From Mycobacterium sherrisii (GTDB taxonomy: Bacteria; Actinomycetota; Actinomycetes; Mycobacteriales; Mycobacteriaceae), in NCBI RefSeq assembly GCF_002102355.1, contig NZ_LQPT01000107.1:1-52035 (forward strand): 52,035 nt of DNA. Reading direction: 5' to 3'. Positions 12,526 to 48,983 of this stretch are shown in pieces (position 1 is the first letter of the stretch; each line of letters opens with the position of its first letter). The notes beneath the pieces are model-generated. The model ran no database searches and had not been told where the DNA came from. It saw only the letters and a list, made by a program, of their open reading frames with translations. Made by a program: the position numbers and the translations under genes.

Positions 12526-12870
12526 CACGAATCCTCCGTCGTGTATGTGCCGTCAGGGGGCGTTGACTTGTTGAGCCGCTTGGCGTGGTGGGGCAGCCTG
12601 GGTCCCGCGTCATCCGTCTTATTAATACATGCCGTCTCAATATCCGAACGTAGACTAGAGGCGTCGGTCACACATTGTCAATGAATGCGGCTCCGACCAC
12701 AGCCGGTCGCCAGCGACTTCCAATGACGGTGCAATGTCGACCCCCGAACGGCCGAACGTCTGCCGTCGCGTATCGGCGGAAAGAAGCCCGAAATCGGAGT
12801 CCGCGGAACGGTTCTCAGCGGGACAACCGCGCCGCGGACCGCTCACGACCGGACGATCACCGGGGTACCA
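12526..12870. other. Intergenic region before the mce operon
   Basis: It contains the mce promoter (12633-12681) and the first part of the long untranslated leader. Between 12690 and 12870 I see no gene, RNA or clear repeat; CAP gene transcription from the right ends here. Confidence 0.5.
12633..12681 (-). promoter_or_regulatory. Promoter and half-operator of the mce operon
   Basis: On the minus strand TTGACA (12676-12681), an 18-bp spacer and TAGTCT (12652-12657) form a housekeeping-type promoter. TTGAGACGG lies at 12632-12640, about 11 bases past the -10, so over or just after the start site. The left arm of the operator is poor here; CCGTCTTA at 12615-12622 repeats part of it. The same cassette stands before at least five other transcription units in this window. 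Confidence 0.65.
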
Positions 12871-13461
12871 TCAGACACATTGTGCTCGTTGATTTCCGCG
12901 ATCGCGTTCAGGACGCACAACGGAAACGTCCGAAAGGACAACACTGGTCGACGACGGCCGGGCCGGTGCACCGTATACGGCGACGACGACCGAACGATCG
13001 AGACTGTTCACCGACCACACCCCCATCTGCGTGTAGCAGCAGTCCCGTATGATCGAGATGGCGACCGGGTCGTAATACCACTGGTTCATGATCTCGATGC
13101 CGTTGATCGCCAGAGCGGGGTTGATGGCCACCGTTTGAGCGACTTCGCCTCGGTAGCCGGCCGCCTGAGCGCGCGATACTACGGTGGACCCGTCCGAGCC
13201 GAGATCGCCGCCGAGATCGCGGTTGTTCAGCACGTCGGTCGCGTGCCACTCCGCAGCGAGTTGCAACTGAGCGTTCTTTACGACGTTGTTCGTGCATCCG
13301 GCCTGGTGTTGAATCGTGTAGACATTGGCGACCACGCTGTTGTTCAACCGGGTGTTGTCGGCATGAGCGAATCCAGCTGTGGCTACGGCGATTGCAGCTG
13401 CAACCAAGACCGCTGTCGCATGGCCGGCGAAACTTCGCAGCTGACTTGCAGCCCTTCTCAC
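12871..13461 (-). CDS. Secreted CAP-domain (SCP-like) protein
   Basis: 196 residues. A signal peptide (VLVAAAIAVATAGFAHA, cleavage near residue 34) precedes a CAP/YkwD-like domain: NTRLNNSVVANVYTIQHQAG, then LAAEWHATDVLNNRDLGGDL and MGVWSVNSLDRSVVVAVYG. Three or four cysteines may pair. CAP proteins are exported and in several cases bind sterols or lipids, which would suit an mce neighbourhood, but the function here is unknown. The last about 30 residues (APARPSSTSVVLSDVSVVRP) run past the usual end of the domain and may reflect loss of the native stop. It has its own copy of the shared operator at 13526-13542. Confidence 0.75.
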   Translation of the reverse strand: MRRAASQLRSFAGHATAVLVAAAIAVATAGFAHADNTRLNNSVVANVYTIQHQAGCTNNVVKNAQLQLAAEWHATDVLNNRDLGGDLGSDGSTVVSRAQAAGYRGEVAQTVAINPALAINGIEIMNQWYYDPVAISIIRDCCYTQMGVWSVNSLDRSVVVAVYGAPARPSSTSVVLSDVSVVRPERDRGNQRAQCV

Positions 13462-13525
13462 GAGCGCGATCCCCTCCTTCGACGAACGGCGCCGCGACTG
13501 ACGTTCGTGGAATCGGCCAACATTG

Positions 13526-13576
13526 TTGGCCTGATCGTCTCAAAATAATTTAGTGGCCGGCGTCGCATCTTGTCAA
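13526..13576 (-). promoter_or_regulatory. Promoter and operator of the CAP-protein gene
   Basis: Minus strand: TTGACA (13571-13576), 18 bp, TAAATT (13547-13552), then TTTGAGACGATCAGGCC ending at 13528. The operator begins directly after the -10 and so would cover the transcription start, a usual place for a repressor. Confidence 0.7.
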
Positions 13577-13659
13577 CGGCGAACCTGCCGGCTCGAGTGC
13601 CCGTCACGGCCCGTCCCCCGAACCGACCGCGGTGACCGGCGTCCGTCGTGATCTGATGT

Positions 13660-13746
13660 CGTCGAGGATCAGCGTCAGCTCGTCCTCCAGATCTGCTGCA
13701 TTCCAAACGATTTTGCCAAGGCCTCGACCTGAGTACCGGTGCCCAT
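13660..13746 (-). pseudogene. N-terminal relic of an mceG-like ATPase
   Basis: From the ATG at 13746 the frame gives MGTGTQVEALAKSFGMQQIW, and after a one-base slip it continues EDELTLILDD. This matches the first 30 residues of MceG/Mkl-type ABC ATPases (a V-L-KSFG-IW-D-LTL pattern). The Walker motifs are absent and the gene breaks off near 13660. I take it as the remains of an Mce transporter ATPase once encoded next to the operon. The match is short and was made by eye. Confidence 0.45.
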
Positions 13747-13772
13747 GCGAGGTCCACTCTGCTAGTCGTCGA

Positions 13773-14651
13773 TCATCTCAGGGTCGCGGCGAGGTCACCG
13801 GCCATCGCCGCCAGCTGCGGTCCCCAGCTGGACCAGTCGTGCTGGCCCCCCGTTGGGAAGTCGAAGTGCGCGTTAGCTCCACCGACGTTTCGGTAGTGGA
13901 CATAGAACGACTTATTACTCCCCTGTGCCTGGTCGCAGTAGCCGATCATCGCCGCGGGATCGCTGCATGTGAGCGTCGATGGACTGAAGATCCAGAGCCG
14001 AGTGTTGTTCTCCACCAGTAGTTGGGCGTGGACATCGGGGTCGTGCCACTTCCAGCGGCCGAGCTGCGCGGCACCCCACATCGCCTGCGTATTGACGCGC
14101 CCGAACTGCGCCATCCCCGCGGTGATCGCGCCGTTCATCCACGTCGCCGACGGGGTCATGAAACCCGACAGCGAGCCTGCGTAGCGGTAGCGGTCGGGGT
14201 GGAACGCCGCCAGCGTCACGGCCGCGGTGCCACCCTGCGAGGCGCCGACCACGCCGTGCCCGCCCGGCGCCAGGCCCTTGTTCGCCACCAGCCAGTTCGG
14301 CAGCTCGTCGGTGAGGAACGTCTCCCACTGCTTGCTGCCGTCGGCTTCCCAGTTGGTGTAGAGGCTAAACGCGCCGCCTGCCGGAGCCGCCACCGAGATG
14401 CCTTTGCCCGCCAGGGTATTGAGCGCACCCGCCCCGACCCAGTTACTGATACCGTCGCCGCCGTTGAACGCGTCGAGCAGCACGACCGCGTGCAGGCCGC
14501 CGCCCTGGAACGCCACGGGAATGTCGCGGCCCATCGCCGCAGACGGCACCCTCAGCATCTCGACGCCGTCCGCCCGTGCAGTGGGCGCTGACCAAAGACT
14601 CGCCGCGATGATCATTGCGAAGAGGACCCGCAGACCACATATCGCCCTCAC
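13773..14651 (-). CDS. Mycolyltransferase / antigen 85-like esterase
   Basis: 292 residues from the GTG at 14651, chosen because AAGGA lies upstream and a clean signal peptide follows (RVLFAMIIAASLWSAPTARA). The alpha/beta-hydrolase fold shows the nucleophile in VVGASQGGTAA and the C-terminal histidine in GGQHDWSSWG, with GDGISNWV and CSDPAAMIGYCDQ as further family blocks. Antigen 85 enzymes move mycolic acids onto trehalose or arabinogalactan in the cell wall. A broken paralogue lies at 47606-48000. Exact acyl acceptor unknown. Confidence 0.85.
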   Translation of the reverse strand: MRAICGLRVLFAMIIAASLWSAPTARADGVEMLRVPSAAMGRDIPVAFQGGGLHAVVLLDAFNGGDGISNWVGAGALNTLAGKGISVAAPAGGAFSLYTNWEADGSKQWETFLTDELPNWLVANKGLAPGGHGVVGASQGGTAAVTLAAFHPDRYRYAGSLSGFMTPSATWMNGAITAGMAQFGRVNTQAMWGAAQLGRWKWHDPDVHAQLLVENNTRLWIFSPSTLTCSDPAAMIGYCDQAQGSNKSFYVHYRNVGGANAHFDFPTGGQHDWSSWGPQLAAMAGDLAATLR

Positions 14652-14693
14652 GCGGACGTCCTTACGACGGGGTGTTTCGGCATCATGCACCTC

Positions 14694-14825
14694 TCAGTCG
14701 GGAGGGTAGGCGGGAGGCGGGTACACGCCGCGCAGGGCCCACGGCAGGAAAGAGAAGAAGTGTTCGATTTCGTCGCTGGCGTCGTAGTCGGGATTCGGAT
14801 CCACGGCCGCACCTTCCCCTCGCAT
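14694..14825 (-). CDS. Small ORF before the mycolyltransferase, 43 residues
   Basis: ATG at 14825 gives MRGEGAAVDPNPDYDASDEI, then EHFFSFLPWALRGVYPPPAY and a stop 43 bp before the mycolyltransferase start. The ordered mix of acidic, aromatic and proline residues looks coding, unlike nearby shadow frames. No good ribosome site is visible, and no family is recognised. It could be a small cell-envelope peptide or the C-terminal stub of a lost protein. Confidence 0.4.
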   Translation of the reverse strand: MRGEGAAVDPNPDYDASDEIEHFFSFLPWALRGVYPPPAYPPD

Positions 14826-15221
14826 GAAATGGATCCCGCTGCAACGGCGAGCGCCGCACCGGCGCCGGGTCGTTCATTTGAGATTACGCGTGTCAAAACT
14901 AACACTTCGGACAGAGTCTACGCAACGGAATCATGATCACGGGCGCGGACGGGCAGGCATCACGTCAGGGCACTTTCGCATCGATCCGAAAGTCGCTCTA
15001 GCGGCTTTTATTTGACCGGCGCAGAATTACGAGATGCCTCGTCTCGAGAGGCTGCACCAGCCACGCCCTGACACTTACGGCGGGCGAGTACCGCTACGCC
15101 ATCGAACGCCTGGTCGCGCTGCCGATCGAGTGTAAGCGTCTGCCCGACAATGTCGTAGCCGAACTCGCTCGTTCGGTGACCCAATCCGCGCGGTCGAGTT
15201 GACCCCGACCGAACACCCACG
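14826..15221. other. Intergenic region, possible gene relic and hairpin
   Basis: No intact gene. On the plus strand 15065-15202 reads LTAGEYRYAIERLVALPIEC, then KRLPDNVVAELARSV and a stop, which looks like a protein C-terminus without a start; a shifted frame just upstream (LTGAELRDASSREAAPATP) may belong to it. At 14989-15008 AAAGTCGC and GCGGCTTT flank a TCTA loop, followed by TTTTATTT, which could be a terminator on the plus strand. Confidence 0.35.
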
Positions 15222-16217
15222 TTAGGTCGCGTCGCCGCGTCGGACGGCACGGGGCGTCGCCGTGGGCGAGCCGATGCGGCTCCGCTGCAGCCCCTGCAAG
15301 GCGGTGCGAGCCGGGCCGTGGCCCGCTGCAGCGGCCACGGCGAGCCACCGCTTTCCCTCGTGGACGTCGTTCTCGCCGCGGTTCAAGATGGCTACAGCCA
15401 GATGGAACGCCGCGCTCACCTGTCCGAGCTGTGCGGCGGTGCGCCAACAACGCTCGGCCTGCTCGAGGTCGTCTCGGTAGTAGTGCAACGCGCCGAGGTC
15501 GTGAAGTGCGTCGGCGTGACCGGTGCGGCCCGCGCGCACCCACCAATAGCGCGCGATTTCTACGGAGTCGGGCGAATCTTGCTGATAGGCGAGCGATCCC
15601 AGCAAGTGTTGCGCATCGGCGTGCCCTTGTTCGGCCGCTGCGAGCAACCAGTGCTTCACCGCCGCTGCCGATCCGCCCGTGCGGTCCTCCTGTCTCAGGA
15701 CGTTCGCGTGATTGAATTGGGCGTCCGGATCCCCCGCCTCGGCGGCTTCGGCAAATAGCCTGCGTGCCTCGGTCCTGCTCTGTTCGTCGCCCCGGCCGTA
15801 GAGGAGGGCTCCAAGGCTTACGCGAGCACCCGGATGTCCGGCTTCCGAGGCGACGCGCCACCAGTATTCGGCCTCAGGATCTGCGCGCCGATCGAGGTTC
15901 GTGGCGAGATTGTGGGCGGCACCGCCGTGTCCCCTCTCAGCAGCCCGCCGCCACCACTGCTCGGCCTCGACCCGTGACGCGTCGTCGCCGGTCTCGTCGA
16001 GGAGGACGCCCAAATTGCACTGGGCTCCGACATGCCCGGAGACGGCGGCGGTGTGAAACCAGTGCTTTGCCGTTTCGCGGTCCTCGCAACAACCTCGTTC
16101 GGTGAGAAGGATCGCCAAATTGAACTGAGCGTCGACATCGCCGGAGATCGCTTCATCCCGCAACGCCTTGATCTCCCCCGGGCCGAGGGTTGGCAACGAC
16201 TCGGGCTGTTCTAGCAC
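15222..16217 (-). CDS. Sel1-like repeat protein
   Basis: 331 residues made almost wholly of about eight Sel1/TPR-like repeats of 34-37 residues, for example AAERGHGGAAHNLATNLD, AAEAGDPDAQFNHANVL, AAEQGHADAQHLLGSLAY and AAQLGQVSAAFHLAVAIL. No signal peptide or membrane helix is seen. Such solenoids hold other proteins together; the partner is unknown. The GTG start overlaps the end of the acyl-CoA ligase gene by seven bases, making it the last gene of the SDR-P450-SCP2-ligase operon. Unusual company for a lipid-degradation operon. Confidence 0.85.
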   Translation of the reverse strand: MLEQPESLPTLGPGEIKALRDEAISGDVDAQFNLAILLTERGCCEDRETAKHWFHTAAVSGHVGAQCNLGVLLDETGDDASRVEAEQWWRRAAERGHGGAAHNLATNLDRRADPEAEYWWRVASEAGHPGARVSLGALLYGRGDEQSRTEARRLFAEAAEAGDPDAQFNHANVLRQEDRTGGSAAAVKHWLLAAAEQGHADAQHLLGSLAYQQDSPDSVEIARYWWVRAGRTGHADALHDLGALHYYRDDLEQAERCWRTAAQLGQVSAAFHLAVAILNRGENDVHEGKRWLAVAAAAGHGPARTALQGLQRSRIGSPTATPRAVRRGDAT

Positions 16218-20413: not shown

Positions 20414-20500
20414 CTCAATTCCTTTCAGCCTTAAGGTCGCACCCGAAAACGTGGCGCGGTGAGAGAAAGCGCCATCGATTGGGTCGGGAGGCCATATTTA

Positions 20501-20549
20501 AAAGCCTTACCGTCTCAAAATAGTAGTGTCGTGCCTCACACGTTGTCAA
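20501..20549 (-). promoter_or_regulatory. Promoter and operator of the SDR-P450 operon
   Basis: Minus strand: TTGACA (20544-20549), 18 bp, TACTAT (20520-20525), then TTTGAGACGGTAAGGCTT ending at 20502. The -35 box is formed by the last codons of the upstream acyl-CoA dehydrogenase gene (ATT GAC AAC), so the two operons abut. Confidence 0.75.
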
Positions 20550-24660: not shown

Positions 24661-24730
24661 GGTCTCCGTCCTCTGGACCGTCCGCTGGGACGGTCGTTGG
24701 GCGCGGGTCGCATCGGACGCCCGCATAATT

Positions 24731-24778
24731 TGAGCCAAATCGTCTCAAATTGTAGACGTGACGCAGACGCCGGGTCAA
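24731..24778 (-). promoter_or_regulatory. Promoter and palindromic operator of the FadE operon
   Basis: Minus strand: TTGACC (24773-24778), 18 bp, TACAAT (24749-24754), then TTTGAGACGATTTGGCTCAA. The operator TGAGCCAAATCGTCTCA (24731-24747) is a 17-bp imperfect palindrome with outer TTTGAG/CTCAAA arms, the most symmetric copy in the window. Confidence 0.8.
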
Positions 24779-24785: not shown

Positions 24786-24799
24786 CGTGAACGGCGGTT
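24786..24799. promoter_or_regulatory. Second copy of the CGTGAACGGCGGTT sequence
   Basis: These 14 bases repeat the left part of the palindrome at 25597-25614. It overlaps the stop codon of the TetR gene, 8 bp upstream of the FadE -35 box, so the regulator might also act on the FadE promoter. The right arm is incomplete. Confidence 0.4.
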
Positions 24800-25496
24800 A
24801 AGCGCGTTTGGCGCGTCGGCGGGTGGCCTTAGCCGGTTCTGCGTGCAGGACCAGATTGATCGCCGCCTCGGCGATGTCCGCGGTCGCTATTCCCTCGTTC
24901 GGCCTGTACCACCGTGACACCCAGATGCACTGGCCCAGGATGAGTCGAGTCGCAGCCACGGGATGCGAGTGGGCGAGCACGCCCTCGTCCATCGCCTCCT
25001 GCACGCAGGTAGTCCACATGGCCTCGTACTTGCGGCTCCATGAGTGCCACCGCTTGAACACGTCCGACGGGAGACCGATGCCGCCGAAGAAGACGGGCAG
25101 GTATCTGCGCATGCGGACCGCCGCGTCCACCTGCAGTTCGATGAGTTGCGCCAGCTTGGCGCGGATCGGCTGATCGGAGTCGACCACCGCCGTGGCCATC
25201 TCGGTGAGTTCTTTCGTGCTGCGCTCGAACAGCACGCCGAGAAGGTGCTCCTTGGTGGGCACGGTGCGATAGAGGGTGGCTCGCGACACGTCGAGCTTCT
25301 TGGCGGCGCCGACGATCGAAACGGCGTCCATTCCCCCCTCGACGAACAACCCGGCGACCGCGTCGGCGACGAGGTCGAGGTCGATCTCGGTCTTGGGTCG
25401 ACCCCGCGGCCGACGGTGTTCGTCGGCGGCCTCGATCAGATCCTTCTGCGAGGTCTTCGGTACCGACTTGGCCCGGCGATTGCCCCGAGGCGCCAT
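24798..25496 (-). CDS. TetR-family transcriptional regulator
   Basis: 232 residues from the ATG at 25496. After a basic, lysine/arginine-rich tail (GNRRAKSVPK, RRPRGRPKTE) comes the TetR helix-turn-helix at about residues 40-85: GGMDAVSIVGAAKKLDVSRA followed by TLYRTVPTKEHLLGVLF. The C-terminal part is a ligand-binding domain (MRRYLPVFFGGIGLPSDVFK). It stands between the FadE operon and a divergent hydrolase gene. A perfect palindrome in the divergent promoter (25597-25614) is its likely own operator. Whether it also binds the TTGAGACG cassette is not shown by the sequence: its own promoter lacks that motif. Confidence 0.88.
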   Translation of the reverse strand: MAPRGNRRAKSVPKTSQKDLIEAADEHRRPRGRPKTEIDLDLVADAVAGLFVEGGMDAVSIVGAAKKLDVSRATLYRTVPTKEHLLGVLFERSTKELTEMATAVVDSDQPIRAKLAQLIELQVDAAVRMRRYLPVFFGGIGLPSDVFKRWHSWSRKYEAMWTTCVQEAMDEGVLAHSHPVAATRLILGQCIWVSRWYRPNEGIATADIAEAAINLVLHAEPAKATRRRAKRA

Positions 25497-26457: not shown

Positions 26458-27576
26458 TCACAGATCCATCGACTGCGCCACGAGGACTCTCATGATCTCG
26501 CTGGAACCGCCGAAGATGCGGGTGACTCGGCCGTCGAGCAGACTTTGACCGACGAAGGAATCCGTTCGGAGGGCGTCCGTTCCGAGGACGTCGACGCAGC
26601 GCTGCGTGACGCGCCCCTGTAACTCCGTGCAGAAGAGCTTGGCGACGGCAGCGTCGGCCGGCGTCAGTTCGTCGGCTTCGTGGGCCGCGATCGATTCGTC
26701 GATGAGTGCCTGGCCCGCCGCGACCTCGGCGTGCGAACTGGCCATAGCGAATTTCACTCGCTGCCCAGGCTTGTGCGCGATCTGAGCGGTGGCGCGGTCG
26801 AGCACAGCCACAGCAGCGGCCTGGGCGCTTACTGCGATCGATAACCGCTCCTGTGCGAGATTCGACGTCAGATAACCGAATCCGGCGTCCTGCTCGCCGA
26901 GCAGGTTGTCCCTGGGAACCCGCATCTGTGAGAACAACAATTCGGCGAGGTCCTGGCTGTGCAATCCGAGTTTGTCCAGTTTGCGACCGCGAGTGAAGCC
27001 GGGGGTGTCCGCCTCGACGACCAGGAGGCTGATTCCGTTGCGGCCGGCGTCGGGTGTGGTCTTGACCGCCAGCACGATGAGGTCGGCCGCTGCGCCGTTC
27101 GAGATGAACGTCTTCGCGCCGTCGACGACGTAGTGGTCGCCGTCCAACTGCGCTCGCGTGGTCATCGACTTGAGGTCCGAACCGGCGCCGGGCTCGGACA
27201 GGGCGAGTGCGACGACGGCCTCCCCCGCGGTGAGTCGCGGTACCCAACGGGCGATCTGCTCCGCGCTGCCGAATCTCAGGAAGTAGGGCATGCAGATGTC
27301 GGTGTGCACCCGGACCCCGCCGAGGGCGAGCCCGGCGCGTTGAGCCTCCTCCGAGACGACGGCGCTGTGCCGGAAGGTCGAGTGCGCGAGCCCTCCCCAC
27401 TCCTTGGGTACTCCGATGCCGAGGATGCCGGCTCGCGCAGCGCCCCTCCAGAATTCACGCGGTGGACGGCCGTCCATCGCCCAGTCCGCGTACTGCGGTA
27501 CGACCTCCTCGTCGAAGAATCGACGGACGACGGCCCGGAACCTTTCGTGTTCGGCGCCGAAAAGCGTGCGCCGCAT
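26458..27576 (-). CDS. Acyl-CoA dehydrogenase (FadE)
   Basis: 372 residues from the ATG at 27576, which overlaps the upstream stop as TGATG; an upstream GTG at 27612 would add 12 residues. Family blocks LALSEPGAGSDLKSMTTRAQ, DGAKTFISNGAAADLIVLAV and the C-terminal IFGGSSEIMRVLVAQSMDL, with Glu in the usual catalytic position. Resembles mycobacterial FadE proteins of full chemical competence. Co-transcribed with the carotenoid-oxygenase-like enzyme, suggesting that the cleavage product enters beta-oxidation. Confidence 0.9.
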   Translation of the reverse strand: MRRTLFGAEHERFRAVVRRFFDEEVVPQYADWAMDGRPPREFWRGAARAGILGIGVPKEWGGLAHSTFRHSAVVSEEAQRAGLALGGVRVHTDICMPYFLRFGSAEQIARWVPRLTAGEAVVALALSEPGAGSDLKSMTTRAQLDGDHYVVDGAKTFISNGAAADLIVLAVKTTPDAGRNGISLLVVEADTPGFTRGRKLDKLGLHSQDLAELLFSQMRVPRDNLLGEQDAGFGYLTSNLAQERLSIAVSAQAAAVAVLDRATAQIAHKPGQRVKFAMASSHAEVAAGQALIDESIAAHEADELTPADAAVAKLFCTELQGRVTQRCVDVLGTDALRTDSFVGQSLLDGRVTRIFGGSSEIMRVLVAQSMDL

Positions 27577-29069
27577 CAGCGGAAGTCTTTCCAGTGACCG
27601 TGCGGTGTCCACCCGAGCGCGAATGGGAGATCGATTCGGCAGACTGGGCCCTGGGTGATGTCGTGGGTGTCGAAGATCTGGAATTGGCCACGCTTTTCAG
27701 CCCACCATGACACGGGGACGATGAGGTACCCGTCCCCCTCGGGAGCGTCCGGTGTGCGCGGCGCGAAGGTTGCCTCGAGGACTGCGGCGGGTTGATCCGT
27801 CCTGATGACGTATTCCGCATCGGACAGGGTCTTCATGTCGGTCGCCACCAGACTGTTCATCGACATGCCCGATCGCTTGTTGACGCCGCCGATTTGGTAG
27901 CCCCATCGGTAACCCTTGCCGTAGAAGCGCTCGTCCACCTTCGGAAGTTCGCAGGGCCGGTCTGACAGCTGCTCGGATTTCGCGGCCCCGGTCCGGAGGT
28001 CGATCGTCCAGCGACCGAGGCTGCTTTTGGCGATGCTGAAGAAGAGCTTGACGTCGTCGCCCTCGGCGAAATCTTGCTCGAACGGGAACGGGGGTCGATT
28101 GAAGATCGGCGCATCCAGCGTCAACCGGTCTCCATCCACGTTCGCGGACATGGTGTGCATTACGTACTGCGGCTCGAGGTCGGTTTCGATCCACCGGACC
28201 GGAGCGTGCGGGTCGTGTCGCGGAATGAGTCCGATGACCACCGGGAGCTCGGGATTCCACCCGAAGATACTCAGGTTGTTGGCGATCCGCTGACGATCGA
28301 CGACGAACGGCTGGAACGGCATCACCATGTACTCGGGTGTGAGCCAGATGTCGTGCGCCACCGAGTTGTAAGGCGCGTCGTGCAGTTCGCGCGTGTGGAC
28401 CGTGCCGTCGGGATCGACGATGTGGACGGTGACGTACGGTTTGATGTCCCGGTAGACCCAGCCGTAGAGGGTGCCGGTGTCGTGATCCCACTTCGGGTGC
28501 GCGCTGAACGTCGCGTCACCGTACGCCGCCGGATCGTGTATCCCCGGTGAAAGCGCGGGCGACCAGGGCACGATGCCCTTGGTGTCCAACGTGATTGGGT
28601 CGATTTCGATCGGCGGGCCACCGACCTCGCCGGAGGCCACCAGGCCGCCGGCGAACGGGAAGATGTTGATGTTGTTGGTGCCCTGCGGCACGCCCGCGTT
28701 ATAGCAGTCGCGCTTCACCTCGCCGTAGCCGAGATTGCGCCAATCGCTCCAGACCCCGTCCGTCCATTCGAACATGCCCTGCTGATGACGTTCCTCGAGC
28801 AGGTACTTGGGAGTTCGGATCCAGCGGTTGCGGAAGTCGGCCCGCCCATTCTCGAAAACCAGGCCCTGCACCATTCCGTCCATCGACAGCAGGGCGTTGG
28901 TGCCCTGCTTCGTCGGGCGCTTCCAGGTGGGTCCCGTGCGGTACGCTCCACCGCACAGATCGCGGGGGATTTCACCTTCGCTGACGATGCACTCCTCGAC
29001 GGTCGCCTCGAAGCGCATTGGCGCGAATGGGCCTTTGAAGGCGGTCTCGTTCGGCAACGGATAACCCAT
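27576..29069 (-). CDS. Carotenoid cleavage oxygenase family protein (RPE65-like)
   Basis: 497 residues from the ATG at 29069 behind a strong GAGGAGGA. The four iron-binding histidines of the beta-propeller are visible: His191 (FSAHPKWD), His239 (SVAHDIWLT), His305 (YVMHTMSAN) and His490 (TPHGHW). These enzymes split a C=C bond with oxygen in carotenoids, apocarotenoids, stilbenes or phenylpropenes. N-terminal LLSMDGMVQGLVFENGRADF and the DPHAPVRWIETD block also fit. The substrate cannot be read from the sequence. It is coupled to a FadE gene and faces an acyl-CoA ligase gene. Confidence 0.88.
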   Translation of the reverse strand: MGYPLPNETAFKGPFAPMRFEATVEECIVSEGEIPRDLCGGAYRTGPTWKRPTKQGTNALLSMDGMVQGLVFENGRADFRNRWIRTPKYLLEERHQQGMFEWTDGVWSDWRNLGYGEVKRDCYNAGVPQGTNNINIFPFAGGLVASGEVGGPPIEIDPITLDTKGIVPWSPALSPGIHDPAAYGDATFSAHPKWDHDTGTLYGWVYRDIKPYVTVHIVDPDGTVHTRELHDAPYNSVAHDIWLTPEYMVMPFQPFVVDRQRIANNLSIFGWNPELPVVIGLIPRHDPHAPVRWIETDLEPQYVMHTMSANVDGDRLTLDAPIFNRPPFPFEQDFAEGDDVKLFFSIAKSSLGRWTIDLRTGAAKSEQLSDRPCELPKVDERFYGKGYRWGYQIGGVNKRSGMSMNSLVATDMKTLSDAEYVIRTDQPAAVLEATFAPRTPDAPEGDGYLIVPVSWWAEKRGQFQIFDTHDITQGPVCRIDLPFALGWTPHGHWKDFR

Positions 29070-29120: not shown

Positions 29121-29147
29121 ACTTTAGCAACTGACCGGCTCTAAAGT
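29121..29147 (-). promoter_or_regulatory. Inverted repeat before the RPE65-like gene
   Basis: ACTTTAG (29121-29127) and CTAAAGT (29141-29147) form perfect arms 13 bp apart. The right part, CCGGCTCTAAAG, looks like the GGCTCATAA half of the shared operator. Probably a control site of the minus-strand gene starting at 29069. Confidence 0.4.
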
Positions 29148-29318: not shown

Positions 29319-29366
29319 TGACACCGATTGTCTGGCCGGACGATACTATTGAGACGGCTCGGCTCG
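29319..29366 (+). promoter_or_regulatory. Promoter and operator of the acyl-CoA ligase gene
   Basis: TTGACA (29319-29324), a 19-bp spacer and TACTAT (29344-29349) are followed at once by TGAGACGGCTCGGCTCG (29350-29366), a near-palindromic copy of the shared operator placed over the transcription start. The ATG follows 83 bases later. Confidence 0.75.
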
Positions 29367-29449
29367 TAAAGCGGGACTGCAAGCCGTTTCGAGCGGAAGG
29401 CCACGCGTCCGTCGGGCATCCGTGTGCCGCAGTGCAGGAGAGGTGACAG

Positions 29450-31313: not shown

Positions 31314-31338
31314 TTTACTATTGAGACGGATCGGCTCA
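31314..31338 (+). promoter_or_regulatory. -10 box and palindromic operator of the monooxygenase operon
   Basis: TACTAT (31316-31321) is followed directly by TGAGACGGATCGGCTCA (31322-31338), which has TGAG/CTCA and CG/CG arms. No good -35 box is found at the expected distance; TTGACG lies about 30 bp upstream, too far, so an activator or weak promoter is possible. Confidence 0.7.
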
Positions 31339-31426
31339 TAATTAGATCTTGCAAGGGTGGCGTCGCACCCGTTGCAGGAGTCGCTGAGCGAGTACTCCGC
31401 CGTTGAACTTCGAGAGGATCCGAACA

Positions 31427-33406: not shown

Positions 33407-34143
33407 CCTCCCAACCACCCGCCGTCGACCTCGAACGCGCCGATCTTGTCCTCTGGGAGCTAGCGCGGACGGGGGTCGCGATGGTACAGCTCAACAGGCC
33501 CGATTCCCTGAACGCGCTGTCCCCCGACATGATGGCGGCGTTGTGGGCCACTCTGGAGCGTCTGAATGACGACCCGGCCGTCCGGGTCGTCGTCATCGCC
33601 GGGCACGACCGGGCCTTCCTCGCCAGCGCCGACATCCGTTCGATGCAGCACCGTCCGCTGCACGACGTACTCACCTCGCACACGGCGAGATTCTGGTTCC
33701 AGCTGGCCACACTCGAGGTGGTATTGGTGGCGGCCGTGTCGGGAGCAGCGTTCGGCGGCGGCTGCGAACTCGCGCTGGCCTGCGACCTCGTCGTCGCGTC
33801 CGAGACCGCGCGGTTCGCCCAAGCGGAGATCAAGGTCGGAATCATGCCGGGCGGCGGCGGAACGCAGCGCCTGGCGAGGGTCATCGGCAAGCATCGAGCC
33901 ATGGAGATGGTGTTGACGGGAGAACCCGTCGACGCCGACGAGGCGCACCGGCTCGGACTCGTCAACCGCGTTGCTCCCACCGACCGCTGGCGAGAGGAAG
34001 CGCTGAATCTGGCCGCGAAGGTCCCCGACGGGCCGCCGGTGGCCATACGCAACGCGAAACGCGCTGTGCAGCAGGCCGAGGAGACGACCATGAGCGCCGG
34101 GATGGCTGCCGAGCCTGTTCGAAGTGACGTTCGGAACGAGTGA
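33403..34143 (+). CDS. Enoyl-CoA hydratase/isomerase, frameshifted C-terminus
   Basis: 246 residues as read. Core blocks: GHDRAFLASADIRSM, SGAAFGGGCELALACDLVVA, AEIKVGIMPGGGGTQRLARV. The ATG overlaps the monooxygenase stop (ATGA). After AAE near 34113 the frame leaves the family consensus and stops at 34143. In another frame the next bases read LFEVTFGTSDRAEGMTSFVE and then RRAPRWRGQ to a stop at 34204, exactly the expected crotonase C-terminus. So a 1-base gain or 2-base loss at 34114-34116 has removed about 30 residues that normally help bind CoA and form trimers. It could be a mutation or a sequencing error. Confidence 0.85.
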   Translation: MTSQPPAVDLERADLVLWELARTGVAMVQLNRPDSLNALSPDMMAALWATLERLNDDPAVRVVVIAGHDRAFLASADIRSMQHRPLHDVLTSHTARFWFQLATLEVVLVAAVSGAAFGGGCELALACDLVVASETARFAQAEIKVGIMPGGGGTQRLARVIGKHRAMEMVLTGEPVDADEAHRLGLVNRVAPTDRWREEALNLAAKVPDGPPVAIRNAKRAVQQAEETTMSAGMAAEPVRSDVRNE

Positions 34144-34235
34144 TCGCGCTGAGGGGATGACCAGCTTCGTCGAGCGCCGAGCACCACGATGGCGCGGACA
34201 GTGATCCCTTCGACTACCACTACCGAGGATTCGGC

Positions 34236-35033
34236 ATGACGAAAACACCACGTCCCGTACTGACGACGACCCGTCACGGTGCGGTCTGCGAGATCAACCT
34301 CGCGCGCCCCGAATTGCACAATCGAGTCGACGCCGAACTGCATGTCCAATTGACGGCGACTCTGCGGCGCATCGCCGACGACCGCTCCATCGGGTCGGTC
34401 ATTCTCACATCGCAAGGCACGACGTTCTCCGCGGGCGGCGACTTCGAGTTGATGCGCGTGGCCCACGACGACCCCGGCGAGCGGCGCACCATCATCGAAG
34501 ACGGCGTGCGGCTACTCCAAGCCCTGCACGGCATCGCACAGCCCGTGGTGGCCGCGGTGCAGGGACCGGCGATCGGCTTGGGTGCCACAATCGCGCTCTC
34601 TTGCGACGCGGTGGTGGCGGGGCCTTCGGCGTCGTTCGCCGATTCCCACGTGGCCGTCGGATTGGCCGCCGGCGACGGCGGCTGCCTGGTCTGGCCGGCC
34701 ACCGCTGGCATGATCCGCGCCCGCCGCCATCTGCTCACCGGCGATCCGATCGACCGCGATACCGCGTACGCGCTAGGAATGGTCACAGACCTGGTGGACA
34801 CCACCGAGGGCGTCGGACCCGCGGCGCTCGCGCTGGCTACTCGCATCGCCGCGTTACCGCCTCTCGCGGTACAGAACACCAAGCGTGCGCTCAATGTCGT
34901 CACACGACTCCGAGCGTCGGAGATCGTCGATATCGCCTTCGCTCTCGAATCGGAGACACTCGCCAGCGATGACCTCCTGGAGGGCATCGCCGCTTTACGA
35001 GAGAGCCGCACGGGGCGCTTCATCGGCCGCTAA
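34236..35033 (+). CDS. Enoyl-CoA hydratase/isomerase (crotonase family)
   Basis: 265 residues behind AGGA. Oxyanion-hole blocks SQGTTFSAGGDFELM and QGPAIGLGATIALSCDAVVA; a family C-terminus (LLEGIAALRESRTGRFIGR) is intact. The second block reads VAVGLAAGDGGCLVWPAT, with Asp near the position of the classical second glutamate, so it may be an isomerase or retro-aldolase type and not a standard hydratase. It follows the frameshifted paralogue and could cover its function. Confidence 0.85.
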   Translation: MTKTPRPVLTTTRHGAVCEINLARPELHNRVDAELHVQLTATLRRIADDRSIGSVILTSQGTTFSAGGDFELMRVAHDDPGERRTIIEDGVRLLQALHGIAQPVVAAVQGPAIGLGATIALSCDAVVAGPSASFADSHVAVGLAAGDGGCLVWPATAGMIRARRHLLTGDPIDRDTAYALGMVTDLVDTTEGVGPAALALATRIAALPPLAVQNTKRALNVVTRLRASEIVDIAFALESETLASDDLLEGIAALRESRTGRFIGR

Positions 35034-38905: not shown

Positions 38906-38947
38906 GACTGTCTCCGTTCATCTTTCGCGGAACGCCCAAGTAGTTTT

Positions 38948-38993
38948 TGAGCCTTTGTATCTCAGAATAGGTTTTCAGCAGGAGTCGTGTCAA
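38948..38993 (-). promoter_or_regulatory. Promoter and operator of the thiolase operon
   Basis: Minus strand: TTGACA (38988-38993), 18 bp, TATTCT (38964-38969). The operator TGAGCCTTTGTATCTCA (38948-38964) directly follows and shares TGAGCC and CTCA with the best copy; it is more divergent in the CGT part. Confidence 0.7.
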
Positions 38994-42858: not shown

Positions 42859-43434
42859 GTGTCAAGAGACATTGAGATCCTCCACGCCGCTGCGGAGTTG
42901 TTCTTCGACAGGGGATACGCCAGCGTCGGAGTGGACGACATCGGAGGGCAGATCGGGACGACGGGCCCCTCTATCTACCGCTACTTTCGCGGAAAGGCGG
43001 AGATCTTGGCCGCACTGTTCGATCAGGCCATTGACGGCGTGCTCTCGGCGACGGGATCCCGCGGCCTCGCCCCCGCCGACGAACTCGAGCACCGGGTGCG
43101 TGCGCACGCGGGATTCGTGGTGGATCACCACAAGCTCGCGTCGGTGTGGATAAGGGAGGGCCGCCACCTGTCCGACGCCGACCGCCGTCGGCTCCGCCGT
43201 CGAGAGAACGCTTACATCGCCCAGTGGGTCGCGTGCATCGGCGCGGCGATTCCCGGCCTCGACGAGCCCATCGCCGAAACCGCAGCTCTCACTGCGATAG
43301 GCACCTTGAACTGCGTGTCCAACTGGCCGGCGGTTGCTACCGAACGGGCGGGAGTGGCCGACTACCTCGCCGATTTCGTCCTGCGGGGCCTGACCCTTCA
43401 CTGCGGTACGACGCACGGGGATCGGTCCCACTAG
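42859..43434 (+). CDS. TetR-family transcriptional regulator
   Basis: 191 residues from a GTG. Helix-turn-helix at about residues 8-55: ILHAAAELFFDRGYASVGVD, then TTGPSIYRYFRGKAEILAAL. The rest is an all-helical ligand-binding domain (HHKLASVWIREGRHLSDADR). It resembles the KstR/AcrR group that controls lipid catabolism, with a CoA ester or lipid as possible ligand. Its stop overlaps by four bases with the convergent reductase gene. The GTAAACC motif in its promoter is a candidate operator. Confidence 0.9.
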   Translation: MSRDIEILHAAAELFFDRGYASVGVDDIGGQIGTTGPSIYRYFRGKAEILAALFDQAIDGVLSATGSRGLAPADELEHRVRAHAGFVVDHHKLASVWIREGRHLSDADRRRLRRRENAYIAQWVACIGAAIPGLDEPIAETAALTAIGTLNCVSNWPAVATERAGVADYLADFVLRGLTLHCGTTHGDRSH

Positions 43435-44603
43435 ACCGCAGCCGCAGACAGCCTGCGGGTGTAGTCGATGAATCGCCGGTTCCTGTTCACCGTGACGGCT
43501 GCCACCACCTCGCCGCCGCGCCGCCCCTCGACCACCATCGCCGGCCGCTCAGCGTCGCCGGACTCCTCCACGACCTCGAACGCGTCCGCTCGTCCGAGGT
43601 ATCCCGCCGCCTTGATCTTGAGGTCGTACTGATCCGACCAGAACGTCGGTGTGGCGTGCGGGGTCCGGCGGTCCGCGGGGTCCTCGGCGAGCAGGTTGTG
43701 CGCGGCGATTTCGGCCGTTTCCCGCGCATTGGTCCAGTGCTCGACGCACGCGAGTGCACCATCGACGAAGCGCGGGAACGCCGCGACGTCACCGACGGCG
43801 AGGATGTCGTCGCGTCCAACGGCGTAAAGGTGCGCATCGCACACCACGGCGCCGCCAGCGAGCCTCAGTCCCGACTCGGTCAGCCACCCGGTATTCGGTA
43901 CGGAGCCCAGTCCGAGCAGGACGACGTCGGCCGGCAACAGCTCGCCGTCGTCGAGGACCACCGTGCTGATCCGTCCCGCGGTCTCGATCAACTGGGACAC
44001 TCCTCGCCCGAATCGCGTTCGCACACCTCGGCTTCGGTGATACTCCGCGGCGAATTCGCCGACTTGAGGTCCGAGAGCGGCCATGGGCAGCGGCGCGAGA
44101 TCCACCAGGGTGACGTTTCGGACCTCGAGTTGACGCAGGGTGGCCGCCACTTCACAGCCGACGAAGCCCGCCCCGATGACGACGAAGGTGGCCGCCGGGT
44201 CGATTTCGGCGCGGAACGCCGCGCTGTCTTCGAGCGTGCGGATCACGTGAACGCCACCCGGTACGGGTGCGGGCCGTCTGCGCGCGGCACGCCCCGTGGC
44301 GATGACCAGGCGGTCGAAGCCCACGCGTGACCCGCCGGCGAGCTCCACCTCGCGGGCCGCGAGATCCAGCGATCGCGCCGGAGCGCCGAGACGCCAGGAG
44401 ACGTCGAGGTCGTCGACGGGATAGAACAGTTCCTCAGGCGAGATGGCGCCACTGAGAAGCTGCTTGGACAGCGGCGGTCGGTCGTACGGGCCGATCGCCT
44501 CGTCCCCGATGACCGTCAGTGAACCGGCGTACCCCAGCTTGCGCAGGGCCGCCGCGACCCGGTGTCCGGCGAGACCTGCACCCACGACGACGACGTCTTC
44601 CAC
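43431..44603 (-). CDS. NADH:ferredoxin reductase (FAD/NAD-linked)
   Basis: 390 residues from a GTG behind GAGGGAA. FAD motif VVVVGAGLAGHRVAAALR, YDRPPLSK, NAD motif FVVIGAGFVGCEVAATL and the second FAD motif ILAVGDVAAF. The domain order and length match the putidaredoxin-reductase-like partners of P450 systems. It should pass electrons from NAD(P)H to the small ferredoxin encoded divergently at 44781, and so to the P450 at 18301. Confidence 0.92.
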   Translation of the reverse strand: MEDVVVVGAGLAGHRVAAALRKLGYAGSLTVIGDEAIGPYDRPPLSKQLLSGAISPEELFYPVDDLDVSWRLGAPARSLDLAAREVELAGGSRVGFDRLVIATGRAARRRPAPVPGGVHVIRTLEDSAAFRAEIDPAATFVVIGAGFVGCEVAATLRQLEVRNVTLVDLAPLPMAALGPQVGEFAAEYHRSRGVRTRFGRGVSQLIETAGRISTVVLDDGELLPADVVLLGLGSVPNTGWLTESGLRLAGGAVVCDAHLYAVGRDDILAVGDVAAFPRFVDGALACVEHWTNARETAEIAAHNLLAEDPADRRTPHATPTFWSDQYDLKIKAAGYLGRADAFEVVEESGDAERPAMVVEGRRGGEVVAAVTVNRNRRFIDYTRRLSAAAV

Positions 44604-44705
44604 GGCTTCCCTCGTTGATCGGCGGGCGTTCTGCCCGCGCTGTTACGCCATGCTGTCATACGATCCGATTTTTTGCGACGATCAGTTTCTAAATTATTGA
44701 TCATC

Positions 44706-44724
44706 GGGCCATGTCGTCTCTAAA
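44706..44724 (+). promoter_or_regulatory. Degenerate shared operator before the ferredoxin gene
   Basis: GGGCCATGTCGTCTCTAAA keeps the GGCC-N4-CGTCTC spacing of the shared operator with TAAA in place of AAAA. It lies in the divergent reductase/ferredoxin region. TAAATTATTGA just upstream could be a -10 for the plus strand. Weaker evidence than the other copies. Confidence 0.4.
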
Positions 44725-45163: not shown

Positions 45164-45277
45164 CGGGATTCGCCGACTGCCTGCGCGGCTGACCGCGGAG
45201 CGGACGCCGCAGCGCACCGGCCGTAAGGATCGGATCCGTTGAGACCAAGCGCCGCGCGTTGTAGAACGCGTCAGCAT

Positions 45278-45640: not shown

Positions 45641-45641
45641 G

Positions 45642-46243
45642 TCACCTAACCAAGAAGAGTAGGGGGAAGATCATGATCCACAGGAGATCGACGACGTGCC
45701 AGAAACATGCCGCCCTCGAAGAACGCGATCAGCGTACGGCTGGGGCGGGCTTACGCGCGAAGCGCGACAACACTGTCAACACGGTCAAACCGATGAGCAC
45801 GTGGACCAGGTGCGACCCCTTCAGCACGAAGTAGTACATGTAGAAATGGTTGGTGGTCGGGGTGATTCCCGCATGCACCTTCTGCGTGTACTCGACGAGC
45901 TTCACCACCACGAAGCACGTGCCGACGAGCACACCGGCGATCGTGAGCCTGGACGCGAGGTGCTGCCAACGCGGGTCCTTCAACGCGCGCGTCGCGAACA
46001 CCACGATGATCGAACTGGTGAGCAGTATGAGTGTGTTGATCGCACCGAACGAACGGTTCAAGTGATCCTGCGACGAGGCGAAGAGGTCGCGTTCTGGTCC
46101 GCGCGCGTGCAGGTACACCACGAACAGCACCGTGAACACCAACATGTCTCCGAAGAGGAGCACCCATACACCGGCTTCACCGGGAATGTGACGAGGGCGC
46201 CCAACAGAGCCTGGTCGGCCGCGCAGGCGTTCGTCGTCGAGAG
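45642..46243 (-). pseudogene. Cytochrome oxidase subunit III, broken by IS3 and a stop codon
   Basis: Frame from the IS border: ERLRGRPGSVGRPRHIPGEA, then GVWVLLFGDMLVFTVLFVVY and a long block with FYMYYFVLKGSHLVHVLIGL. A TGA at 45729-45731 stops it, but the same frame goes on with AACFWHVVDLLWIMIFPLLF and ends at 45642, exactly the conserved C-terminal helix of subunit III. The 5' end is cut at 46243 by the IS3 element. So the gene has lost its start and carries a nonsense codon. Confidence 0.75.
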
Positions 46244-46259
46244 TGAACCATCCCGAGTT

Positions 46260-47240
46260 TCATGCACCCTCGGGGTTCTGTGAGTCGGCCGGTTGGTCGG
46301 TCACGAGTTGAGAATAGTAGCGGGTCTCGGCTTCGGCGGGTGGGATGCGTCCGAGGCGGTGCATGAGGCGCTGCTGGTTGTACCAGGCGACGTAGTCGGC
46401 GGTGATGTACTCGACGTTGCCCACGATGTTGAGCTTGCCGCGGCGGAACGGGGAGTCGGCTCGGACGCACTCGTTTTTGTAGAGCCCGATCGTGGTCTCG
46501 GCCAACGCGTTATCGTAGGCGTCACCGACGCTACCGACCGACGGTCGGATCTCCGAAAGACTCAGTGTATCACCGAATCTCACGCTCGTATATTGCGTCC
46601 CAGCATCGCTGTGGTGGATCGCACCGTCGATCGGATGCCCCTGGCGGCGGCGTAGTGCGGCGGCCTGACGGATGGCCGATTCGACGAAGCGGGTGTGCTT
46701 GGAGGCCGACGCCTCCCACCCCAGGATGGCTCCCGCATAAGCGTCGATGACAAACGCGACATAGACGAAGATCCCGGTCACCAACTTCACGTAGGTGAAG
46801 TCAGCCACGAGCAGCAGGTTGGGAGCGGGCACGCCGAACTGGCGGTCCACCAGATCCGGTGGCCGCACCGCCTCCGGGTCCGGGATCGTGGTGCGCACCT
46901 TTTTGCAGCGTCGCACGCCCCGCCAGCCATTTTTACGCATCAGCCGTTCCACCGTGGACTTGGCCACCGGGATGCCCTCGCGCTGCAGATGGGCCCACAT
47001 CTTCAGCGACCCGTACAGCGACTCCGGTTTGCGGCGGCCCTGCTCGTCGGGCTCGTAGCAGCCGGCCAGGATCTGCGTGATCGTGGCATCCCACAGGGCC
47101 CGTTTCGAGGGCGCCCGCGTAGCCCAGGCATGAAACGTTCTCGGGGCGATCGGCATCCCGTGCTCGCAGAGCACGCGGCAGATCGGAGCGACCCCGAAAC
47201 GGTCCCTGTTCTTGGCGATGAACTCGCAGACCGTGGCTGT
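46260..47240 (-). CDS. IS3-family transposase OrfB (DDE integrase)
   Basis: From the first inner start (47174) 304 residues are read; homology extends back to about 47240 (TATVCEFIAKNRDRFGVAPI), so OrfB is normally made as an OrfAB fusion by -1 frameshifting. The catalytic triad is Asp in LLVADFTYVKL, Asp in IHHSDAGTQYTS and Glu in DNALAETTIGLYKNE. All parts are intact. Confidence 0.9.
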   Translation of the reverse strand, partial: TATVCEFIAKNRDRFGVAPICRVLCEHGMPIAPRTFHAWATRAPSKRALWDATITQILAGCYEPDEQGRRKPESLYGSLKMWAHLQREGIPVAKSTVERLMRKNGWRGVRRCKKVRTTIPDPEAVRPPDLVDRQFGVPAPNLLLVADFTYVKLVTGIFVYVAFVIDAYAGAILGWEASASKHTRFVESAIRQAAALRRRQGHPIDGAIHHSDAGTQYTSVRFGDTLSLSEIRPSVGSVGDAYDNALAETTIGLYKNECVRADSPFRRGKLNIVGNVEYITADYVAWYNQQRLMHRLGRIPPAEAETRYYSQLVTDQPADSQNPEGA

Positions 47241-47554
47241 CAGCGGCGGTTGCGCGGGTCGCTCTCCCGCACGAAGAAACTCGTTGCCGCCTTGAGGATT
47301 TCGATGGTCTGCTCCAGCTCGGCGTTACGGCGCTTGAGCGCGCGGATCTCCGCCGCAGCGTCACTGGACACACCGTCGCGCTCACCCTCGTCGACCTGAT
47401 GCCGACGGATCCAACTTCGCAGCGTCTCGGCGGTCATCCCCAGCCGCTGAGACACCGCAGTGATCGCCGCCCACTCGCTCGGATAGTCATCACGATGATC
47501 CAGCACCAGACGCACAGCCCTGGCCCGGGTCTCCGGGTCGTACTTGCTCGCCAC
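47240..47554 (-). CDS. IS3-family OrfA
   Basis: 104 residues from the GTG at 47554 behind GGAAGG. Helix-turn-helix (EWAAITAVSQRLGMTAETLR, SWIRRHQVD) and a leucine-zipper-like tail (AAEIRALKRRNAELEQTIEI LKAATSFF). It binds the inverted repeats and provides the first half of the OrfAB transposase. Confidence 0.88.
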   Translation of the reverse strand: MASKYDPETRARAVRLVLDHRDDYPSEWAAITAVSQRLGMTAETLRSWIRRHQVDEGERDGVSSDAAAEIRALKRRNAELEQTIEILKAATSFFVRESDPRNRR

Positions 47555-47605
47555 GACATGCACCTTCCCAAGAAGAGAGGTGCGCATCAAACGCGGGACG
47601 GTTCA

Positions 47606-48000
47606 GCCCGCCGACTTCCCAAATATTGAGCGTAGACCTGACGATTGCTTCCCTCTGCGATCTCCGGGCAGCCGATCATCGCGGCGGGTTCGCTGGCCGT
47701 AGTGCTGACTGGTCCGAAGACCCACAATCGCGTGTTGTTGTCCGCCAGCAGCCTGAGATGCATGTACGGCGAGTGCTATTTCCACCGGCCCAGTTGCGGC
47801 GCACCCCACATATTGTTGGTGTCGACACCGCCGAACTGTTGAAGGGTGGCGAGTATCGCGCCGTCCACGCCCGTGCGTTCTGGCGCAAGAAATCCTGACA
47901 TCGATCCGGCGTAACAAAATCGGTCGGGGTAGGACGCCGCCAAAGCCATTGCGGCATAACCTCCTTGCGAGGCGCCTACGACGGCGCGCCCGCCGGGGGC
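47606..48000 (-). pseudogene. Internal fragment of a mycolyltransferase gene
   Basis: Read on the minus strand the frame gives LAPGGRAVVGASQGGYAAMA, then LAASYPDRFCYAGSMSGF, NNMWGAPQLGRWK, a TAG stop at 47776-47778 and, after it, DNNTRLWVFGPVSTTASEPA with AAMIGCPEIAEGSN. This matches residues in the middle of the intact gene at 13773-14651 along its length. Both ends are missing: the IS3 element cuts one side and the membrane-protein gene the other. Confidence 0.8.
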
Positions 48001-48827
48001 TAGGGCGTGGAACCGTGGACTGCCGCTGGCATCTGTTCAGGGAACTGGGCCATTGCGGCGATTCGTGGCAGCAAGTTGCAGAGCAGATAACCGGCGACGA
48101 TGAGTTCGAGGGCGATCGTTCCGGCGCCAATGATGTGCGCAGCGACTGGACCCACGTCCGAGTTGATCGCAGCTATGGTAGGCCAGCTGACCGTGGCGTA
48201 GAGGCCGAACTGCGATCCCGGCACTATCACGGGGATCAGCCAGAGCATCGCTTTGTTGCCTGTCGCGCAAACCGAGAGCGCTGCCGCGGCGGCGGCCAAA
48301 GGCATTGCGCCGTTGACGAAAATCATCCAGGCAGGCAGCCGCCAGAAGTCGGAAAAGAACGGGTTATGGTCGCCGTGGTAGGCGTAGAGCGTCACGACGT
48401 GGCTGAGCGGGACCTCGATGAAAATGTCGATCGCGACGATCGCCCAGTAGATCTGCCACATCGCTCGCGCGCCACCGCCGGCTCGGAGCCGATCGATTGC
48501 GAATAGGGACGCGCCGCCGACGAACCAGGTGTACGTGCCCAGCTGCCACAGCGGTACGTGGATGCCGAAAATCGTTATGAGGCGCCATTGACCGCCTTCG
48601 CTGGCGTACCACAGCAATGAGAATCGATCGGCGGCGGGCTCGAAGCTCGCGGCGCATAGCATCCCACCGATGATCACCAGGATTCGAAAGCGCAACTCGA
48701 TGCCGCGACGTCCGCGCAACAGGTACCAGGTCGTTGCGGCGGCCACAGTGAACATGATGGCCGTCATGACCACCTGGGCAGGATAATCGACGACTTGGTC
48801 GACTGGCGCGTAACTAGGCGGCGCCAT
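48000..48827 (-). CDS. Polytopic membrane protein of unknown function
   Basis: 275 residues with about seven hydrophobic segments, for example AQVVMTAIMFTVAAATTWYL, FRILVIIGGMLCAASF, QIYWAIVAIDIFIEVPLSHV, LPAWMIFVNGAMPLAAAAAA and AAHIIGAGTIALELIVAGYL. Charged loops hold YHGDHNPFFSDFWR. I do not recognise the family. The ATG at 48827 has AGGAG ten bases upstream. The stop falls on the border with the mycolyltransferase fragment, so the last few residues may not be original. Its promoter carries the shared operator, which places it in the same regulon as mce and the catabolic operons; a transport or envelope role is possible. Confidence 0.7.
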   Translation of the reverse strand: MAPPSYAPVDQVVDYPAQVVMTAIMFTVAAATTWYLLRGRRGIELRFRILVIIGGMLCAASFEPAADRFSLLWYASEGGQWRLITIFGIHVPLWQLGTYTWFVGGASLFAIDRLRAGGGARAMWQIYWAIVAIDIFIEVPLSHVVTLYAYHGDHNPFFSDFWRLPAWMIFVNGAMPLAAAAAALSVCATGNKAMLWLIPVIVPGSQFGLYATVSWPTIAAINSDVGPVAAHIIGAGTIALELIVAGYLLCNLLPRIAAMAQFPEQMPAAVHGSTP

Positions 48828-48937
48828 GGGACCGTCGCTCCTGGACTGAGAGTCGGCAAGCGGCGCTTGTCATCACGCGGTCTGGGGGTAGCACTGCACT
48901 CTCCAAATTCCGAACAAGCGAAGCGGGTGCCCGATTT

Positions 48938-48983
48938 AGGGCTTCAGCGTCTCAAAATATCGTCTAGGAGCGGCCGATGTCAA
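48938..48983 (-). promoter_or_regulatory. Promoter and operator of the membrane-protein gene
   Basis: Minus strand: TTGACA (48978-48983), 18 bp, TATTTT (48954-48959), with TTTTGAGACGCTGAAGCCCT ending at 48938 over the start site. It is a full copy of the shared cassette far from the main cluster. Confidence 0.7.

Follow-up and report, generated by a model that had tools for sequence, protein, structure and literature searches.

The window analysed here is the whole 52,035-nucleotide contig NZ_LQPT01000107.1 (C107) of Mycobacterium sherrisii, which has 65% G+C and makes up about 0.9% of the 5.56-Mb genome. It holds an mce operon, a carotenoid oxygenase gene and several sets of β-oxidation genes, and eleven copies of a dyad element of about 25 bp lie before these and other genes. 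Judged from sequence comparisons, these elements are probably the operators of a cluster-specific repressor of the TetR family, most likely the protein termed TetR-A below, local to a mobile mce/carotenoid oxygenase/β-oxidation cluster.

Operator sites in the window

A first, symmetrised matrix of 25 bp was built from nine window sites and applied to other genomes. The 80 distinct outside sites (score at least 16) then provided another matrix, termed the outside matrix below, and the sequence model R2, with no window site in the training; since the 80 outside sites had been selected with the window matrix, neither set is blind to the other. In the weight-matrix scan that an earlier note on this DNA had proposed, made here with the outside matrix, eleven window sites scored 16.4-31.5 and the next best match 11.2; in 40 simulated windows the maximum averaged 9.5 and never exceeded 15.3. 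The eleven sites are as follows.

12619..12643, minus strand: operator of the mce operon (YrbE/MlaE-type permease, probable start ATG 12397); score 26.3, R2 match; promoter TTGACA-18-TAGTCT at 12652-12681, an exact TTGACM-N18-TANNNT match
13522..13546, minus strand: operator of the CAP protein gene (12871-13461); score 23.2, R2 match; abutting promoter at 13547-13576
14875..14899, minus strand: operator of an esterase gene (13773-14690); score 25.5; window-wide R2 E-value (E) 0.029, outside the ten genome-wide R2 matches
20497..20521, minus strand: operator of the SDR-P450-SCP2-like-CoA ligase genes; score 28.7, R2 match; promoter at 20520-20549
24727..24751, minus strand: operator of acyl-CoA dehydrogenase genes (probable start 24660), with the dyad AATTTGAG...CTCAAATT, just downstream of TetR-A; score 30.5, R2 match; promoter at 24749-24778
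29122..29146, minus strand: weak operator of the carotenoid oxygenase gene; score 16.4, lowest of the eleven; missed by R2 at E ≤ 10
29346..29370, plus strand: operator of an acyl-CoA ligase gene (29450-31276); score 22.2, R2 match
31318..31342, plus strand: operator of FAD monooxygenase and enoyl-CoA hydratase genes (31403-35033); score 31.5, R2 match
38944..38968, minus strand: operator of the thiolase-SDR-enoyl-CoA hydratase-acyl-CoA dehydrogenase genes; score 29.2, R2 match; promoter at 38964-38993
44670..44694, minus strand: operator of a ferredoxin reductase-like gene (43431-44603); score 29.6, R2 match
48934..48958, minus strand: operator of the gene for an unknown membrane protein (48000-48827); score 23.3, R2 match; promoter at 48954-48983

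The heptamer TGAGACG stands exactly where the earlier note had placed it at seven sites, and its variant TGAGATA was found at 38958-38964 (minus strand), within 38948-38964. Among the two sites described there as degenerate, the one at 29137 could be kept as 29122-29146, the weakest of all, while the position 44706 was mistaken, the true site being 44670-44694, the third best. The note had allowed that its list might be incomplete, and the esterase site at 14875-14899 had indeed been missed. The CAP protein, an odd member of a catabolic regulon, weakly resembles the divisome-associated lipoprotein DalA (42.8 bits, cut-off 200).

The heptamer alone occurs 16 times in the window versus 11.4 expected, a count reached by 10 of 100 shuffles, and was dropped as stand-alone evidence for want of enrichment; the claim therefore rests on the composite pattern. 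TTGACM-N18-TANNNT was matched six times versus 0.10 expected, with none of 100 shuffles reaching six, and all six matches fall at sites claimed in the earlier note. A 17-bp dyad with at most three mismatches gave 11 matches versus 3.5 expected (0/100 shuffles reach 11), which correspond to eight places, three of them matched on both strands; five are claimed sites and three are not. The 17-bp palindrome of the earlier note is too short, as the operator is a dyad of about 25 bp, approximately ATTTTGAGAC-N5-GTCTCAAAAT, beside the -10 box, and the logo of the 80 outside sites reads roughly (A/T)TTTTGAGAC-N5-GTCTCAAAA(T/A). In the genome of M. sherrisii, TTGAC-N20-38-TGAGAC occurs 19 times, eight of them in the window and seven of those at claimed sites, versus eight occurrences of the reversed control pattern. 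One occurrence outside the window (L018, C81:275674-275708) encloses the inverted repeat ACGAC-TAGT-GTCGT and is probably unrelated.

The six exact promoters show three arrangements: the -10 box and the 25-bp operator share 2-5 bp at four of them, are directly adjacent at 13.5 kb and are 8 bp apart at the mce promoter. Among the 80 outside sites, TTGAC lies 24-28 nt before the site 32 times, both directions being counted, versus 15 times at other distances up to 60 nt. A single flanking TTGAC orients 34 of the outside sites, and the half-site nearer to it is better than the other in 27 of these, worse in two and tied in five. The promoter-side position and this asymmetry fit a promoter-occluding repressor, as described for KstR (PMC1995591).

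Confinement to the cluster and occurrence in related genomes

Over the 5.56 Mb of the M. sherrisii genome, R2 gave ten matches at E ≤ 5, all of them inside the window and none elsewhere; with one place matched on both strands, they represent nine places, all among the eleven operators. As far as R2 can detect, the regulon does not extend beyond the cluster: many of the cluster's promoters have the operator, which was undetected in the rest of the genome, as in a local regulon of a single repressor. A chance origin of the sites was rejected by the composite enrichment, the R2 genome scan and the comparison of the outside matrix with simulated windows.

Related loci were collected through the cluster's anchor gene:

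27576..29069, minus strand: carotenoid oxygenase (RPE65 family), 62-78% identical in 35 of 41 loci

TetR-A alone as the query of a first genome contig scan had returned no relatives; an alignment of the oxygenase succeeded instead and retrieved 41 loci (flanks of at most 10 kb in named loci), the nearest named relative being that of Mycolicibacterium hodleri (78%). The window-trained matrix found 60 sites in 21 of the 41 loci (L047-L067, 17 genomes), where 0.64 were expected by matrix permutation; the other 20 loci had no site. The split between operator-bearing and operator-less loci, recognised post hoc, tracks oxygenase identity, which is 66-78% in L047-L067, 62-66% in L068-L081 (L077 overlaps, at 66%) and 25-31% in L082-L087. 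L068-L081, where the best scores with the outside matrix were 1.5-15.3, form a second branch of the carotenoid oxygenase without these operators nearby. Nocardia terrae has a locus of each kind, L050 with and L071 without operators, and was counted once, as operator-bearing. Altogether, the operator was found in 17 named genomes, a Rhodococcus plasmid and the genomes G266 and G583.

The outside matrix yielded 88 sites in 26 loci, a count which includes one place twice (overlapping loci), consists mostly of the matrix's own training sites and has no null comparison. Fifty-four of them lie at most 500 bp upstream of, and correctly oriented towards, a gene homologous to one of the window, in some cases with an identity of just 25-32%; the remaining 34 have no such neighbour, and one of these lies inside a distant homolog. 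The operator is present at FMO promoters in ten loci and likewise at oxygenase promoters in ten.

The plasmid pRZP2 of Rhodococcus sp. ZPP (NZ_CP058639.1) resembles the window in having the same operator, homologous enzymes (carotenoid oxygenase 75% identical, thiolase 77%, SDRs 78 and 73%, P450 68%, FMO 62%) and a TetR-A relative (59%; 56-62% by method), whereas its gene order differs and its mce proteins are just 22-39% identical where they match. All ten sites in its 40-kb stretch are intergenic, with 80% of the stretch listed as coding in a gene table that may be incomplete. In the same family, G266 has the operator together with an oxygenase (71%), an FMO (52%) and two TetR-A relatives. 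A model of the window sites with 38 columns (R1) matched four places on the ZPP plasmid and none in G266 at E ≤ 10; unlike R1 in G266, the shorter dyad matrix detects sites in both. In G636, two R2 matches (E 0.12 and 0.47) stand 13 kb apart on contig C1 (865723-879114), off the contig of the main cluster, and perhaps mark a second regulated locus.

The earlier note had proposed one operator common to the mce and catabolic promoters, a view upheld by the use of separate genomes for training and testing, by the operator's presence in relatives and by its confinement in the R2 scan.

The candidate repressor

Two TetR-family genes lie in the window:

24798..25496, minus strand: TetR-A, predicted cognate repressor, 232 aa (PF00440, PF17932)
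42859..43434, plus strand: TetR-B, rival regulator (PF00440, PF17932)

TetR-A scores above the cut-offs of both Pfam models, with 25.3 bits for PF00440 (TetR_N; cut-off 24) and 63.7 bits for PF17932 (cut-off 26.4). Thirty genomes were compared for both proteins; the 17 operator-bearing ones differ from those of L047-L067 in that they include G000, G266 and G583, while M. hodleri, Sciscionella marina and M. triplex were left out, and their stretches hold relatives of both TetR-A and TetR-B. TetR-A co-occurs with the operator completely, being present at E ≤ 1e-50 in 17/17 operator-bearing and 0/13 operator-less genomes (best E in the latter 3e-18). At E ≤ 1e-30, it was found in 2/301 genomes of the family and 2/397 of the order, its own included; these counts may be low because just 7-9 candidates were scored per genome. 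TetR-A lies within the fetched stretch in nine of 21 operator loci and elsewhere in the genomes of the remaining twelve (L064 and L053 share one genome), and in 5 of 12 loci holding TetR-A an operator stands within 500 bp before it. In the segment that corresponds to the recognition helix of the TetR family, the nine TetR-A proteins of alignment A6 (47-63% identical to that of the window) all read SRATLYRT, and a relative outside A6, from Mycolicibacterium sp. CBMA 234, has SRATLYRA. Two TetR-A relatives, 12-25 kb apart on one contig, occur in G266, G631, G634, G636, G638-G641 and G645; the window has one.

In the mechanism proposed, a TetR-A dimer would bind the dyad, and because the operator sits next to the -10 box, we infer repression by occlusion. 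At these ordinary TTGAC/TANNNT promoters, where the -10 box is partly covered or directly adjoined by the operator or, at mce, just precedes it, bound TetR-A would block RNA polymerase. Up to eleven promoters could be shut together in this way, those for mce uptake, the P450, the FMO-type monooxygenase, the carotenoid oxygenase, CoA ligases and β-oxidation among them, and release would be brought about by a pathway product, probably a CoA thioester.

Several observations weigh against a regulon controlled by TetR-A through this operator. At the mce promoter (the 12633 site), a gap of 8 bp separates the -10 box from the operator, and at the sites 12633 and 31322 TTGAC lies about 10 bp farther upstream than at most sites. 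The region before TetR-A in the window has only a match of 11.2, inside the simulated range, and autoregulation is thus not evident here. In other genomes, most of the sites in L054 and L061-L067 have lower strength or symmetry, three operator-bearing genomes give single R2 matches, and R2 has no match at E ≤ 1 in Streptomyces sp. GQFP although the matrix detects sites there. Conversely, the outside matrix gives 15.3 to one site of L080, a locus counted as operator-less, and three of the 13 operator-less genomes (G642, G644 and G649) have one weak R2 place each (E 0.39-0.63). Finally, TetR-B correlates with the operator nearly as well as TetR-A, being present at E ≤ 1e-60 in 16/17 operator-bearing genomes and 1/13 operator-less ones (Fisher p 2e-6 versus 8e-9 for TetR-A, with relatedness ignored).

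This last point raises the alternative that TetR-B reads these operators instead of TetR-A. TetR-B relatives lie near the carotenoid oxygenase in many operator-bearing loci, and in M. hodleri two operators lie between an aldehyde dehydrogenase gene and a TetR-B relative. The alternative is nevertheless unlikely, as both exceptions to the correlations favour TetR-A. Parafrankia sp. EUN1f has TetR-A and the sites (scoring 30.6 upstream of a CoA ligase homolog and 20.2 upstream of the oxygenase; one R2 place, E 0.77), yet only a background match to TetR-B (1e-33), while the metagenome-assembled genome nzgw111, which at 3.5 Mb may be incomplete, has two TetR-B relatives (2e-71 and 6e-57), a background match to TetR-A (5e-16) and no operator. 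Moreover, the recognition-helix segment of TetR-B is variable among eight aligned relatives, and the TetR-B relative of Rhodococcus sp. ZPP is encoded downstream of the oxygenase gene, apparently within an operator-driven operon. The best operator score upstream of TetR-B in the window is -5.6. The earlier note had left the choice to one of the two TetR proteins of the window; it can be narrowed to TetR-A, which is favoured, with no more than two genomes telling the candidates apart.

It is very unlikely that a different, unrecognised regulator of the cluster reads the sites: regulator genes were covered incompletely across the clusters, within the limited flanks of the named loci, but the TetR-A correlation is complete across the 30 genomes compared. 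A special promoter, in which TGAGACG would be a sigma-factor or discriminator element and not part of an operator, is an even more improbable explanation. The heptamer does stand in the -10/+1 region, and conservation is stronger in the half of the element that faces the promoter; however, the second half-site is conserved as well (on average 4.3 of 6 letters in 34 sites), the whole element is a dyad, the -35 and -10 elements are of the ordinary type, and the motif follows one TetR gene, the rest of the genome having no R2 match at E ≤ 5.

Cluster function and comparison with known regulators

The operator-bearing units encode Mce/YrbE importer proteins, a P450, an SDR, an SCP2-like protein (below the Pfam cut-off), CoA ligases, acyl-CoA dehydrogenases, enoyl-CoA hydratases, a thiolase, an FMO-type monooxygenase, the carotenoid oxygenase and a ferredoxin reductase-like protein. 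Such a catabolic set would suit a hydrophobic, fatty or terpene-like compound, perhaps an isoprenoid-like one, the substrate being predicted by kind only. Abscisic acid, an idea prompted by work on Rhodococcus sp. P1Y, is without support because PMC7996341 and PMC9599779, in their accessible parts, name no gene cluster for it. Integrase/transposase-type genes are present at both ends of the cluster and inside it (60-818, 46260-47590, 49711-50967 and 51157-51732). One of them sits between the membrane protein gene 48000-48827 and a cytochrome oxidase III-like gene (45729-46163), which covers only positions 84-214 of the 258 of its Pfam model.

With about equal reason for belief and doubt, the cluster can be read as a mobile actinobacterial island, perhaps 50-80 kb long, that encodes an undescribed route for isoprenoid- or terpenoid-like compounds through carotenoid-oxygenase cleavage, Baeyer-Villiger-like oxidation and β-oxidation, has its own Mce importer, and travels with one TetR repressor and its operators. 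Its distribution is patchy, over Mycobacterium, Nocardia, Amycolatopsis, Sciscionella, Aeromicrobium, Actinomycetospora, Streptomyces and Parafrankia, as well as the Rhodococcus plasmid. If the island does travel in this way, the repressor's inducer would identify the substrate, and the ligand would be a direct route to the substrate of the Mce importer, a common open question for such importers. The analysis also unites scattered transcription units as one regulon with a testable repressor, and the search motif delimits an uncharacterised catabolic island across actinobacteria.

The presence of mce and β-oxidation genes recalls the steroid and lipid regulons of KstR, KstR2 and Mce3R, and the profile relatives of TetR-A include KstR2 (PDB 4w97, E 8e-12, positions 29-200 of 219) and Mce3R (9b7y, E 4e-10), its best match among solved structures being the uncharacterised TetR protein 3dcf (E 4e-19). 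That the sites belong to one of these regulons is, however, practically ruled out by the motif, for the published operators, namely TnnAACnnGTTnnA for KstR (PMC1995591), AAGCAAGNNCTTGCTT for KstR2 (PMC8228715) and a non-palindromic one for Mce3R (PMC11667970), differ from the 80-site logo, and the earlier note was right to call the motif unlike those of KstR and KstR2. Eleven new motifs of mycobacterial TetR proteins are also reported in PMC4482099. No description of this operator, its regulator or the pathway was recognised among the literature matches listed, which mostly exclude subscription papers, and the motifs of PMC4482099 were not compared.

Mce3R is a TetR-type repressor tied to an mce operon, as proposed here, but it is a double TetR protein, whereas TetR-A is a single 232-aa TetR protein with a dyad operator. 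KstR2 shares the profile match and a catabolic regulon and differs in its operator. KstR of M. smegmatis (MSMEG_6042, orthologue of Rv3574) is also a TetR repressor of a large lipid-degradation regulon, and its palindromic operator partly overlaps the -10 region; it differs in operator sequence and in extent, since its motif occurs 31 times across the M. smegmatis genome, while all R2 matches in the M. sherrisii genome lie in one sporadic cluster. The regulatory mechanism is an ordinary, KstR-like one, with an operator sequence that was not found described and a good candidate for its repressor.

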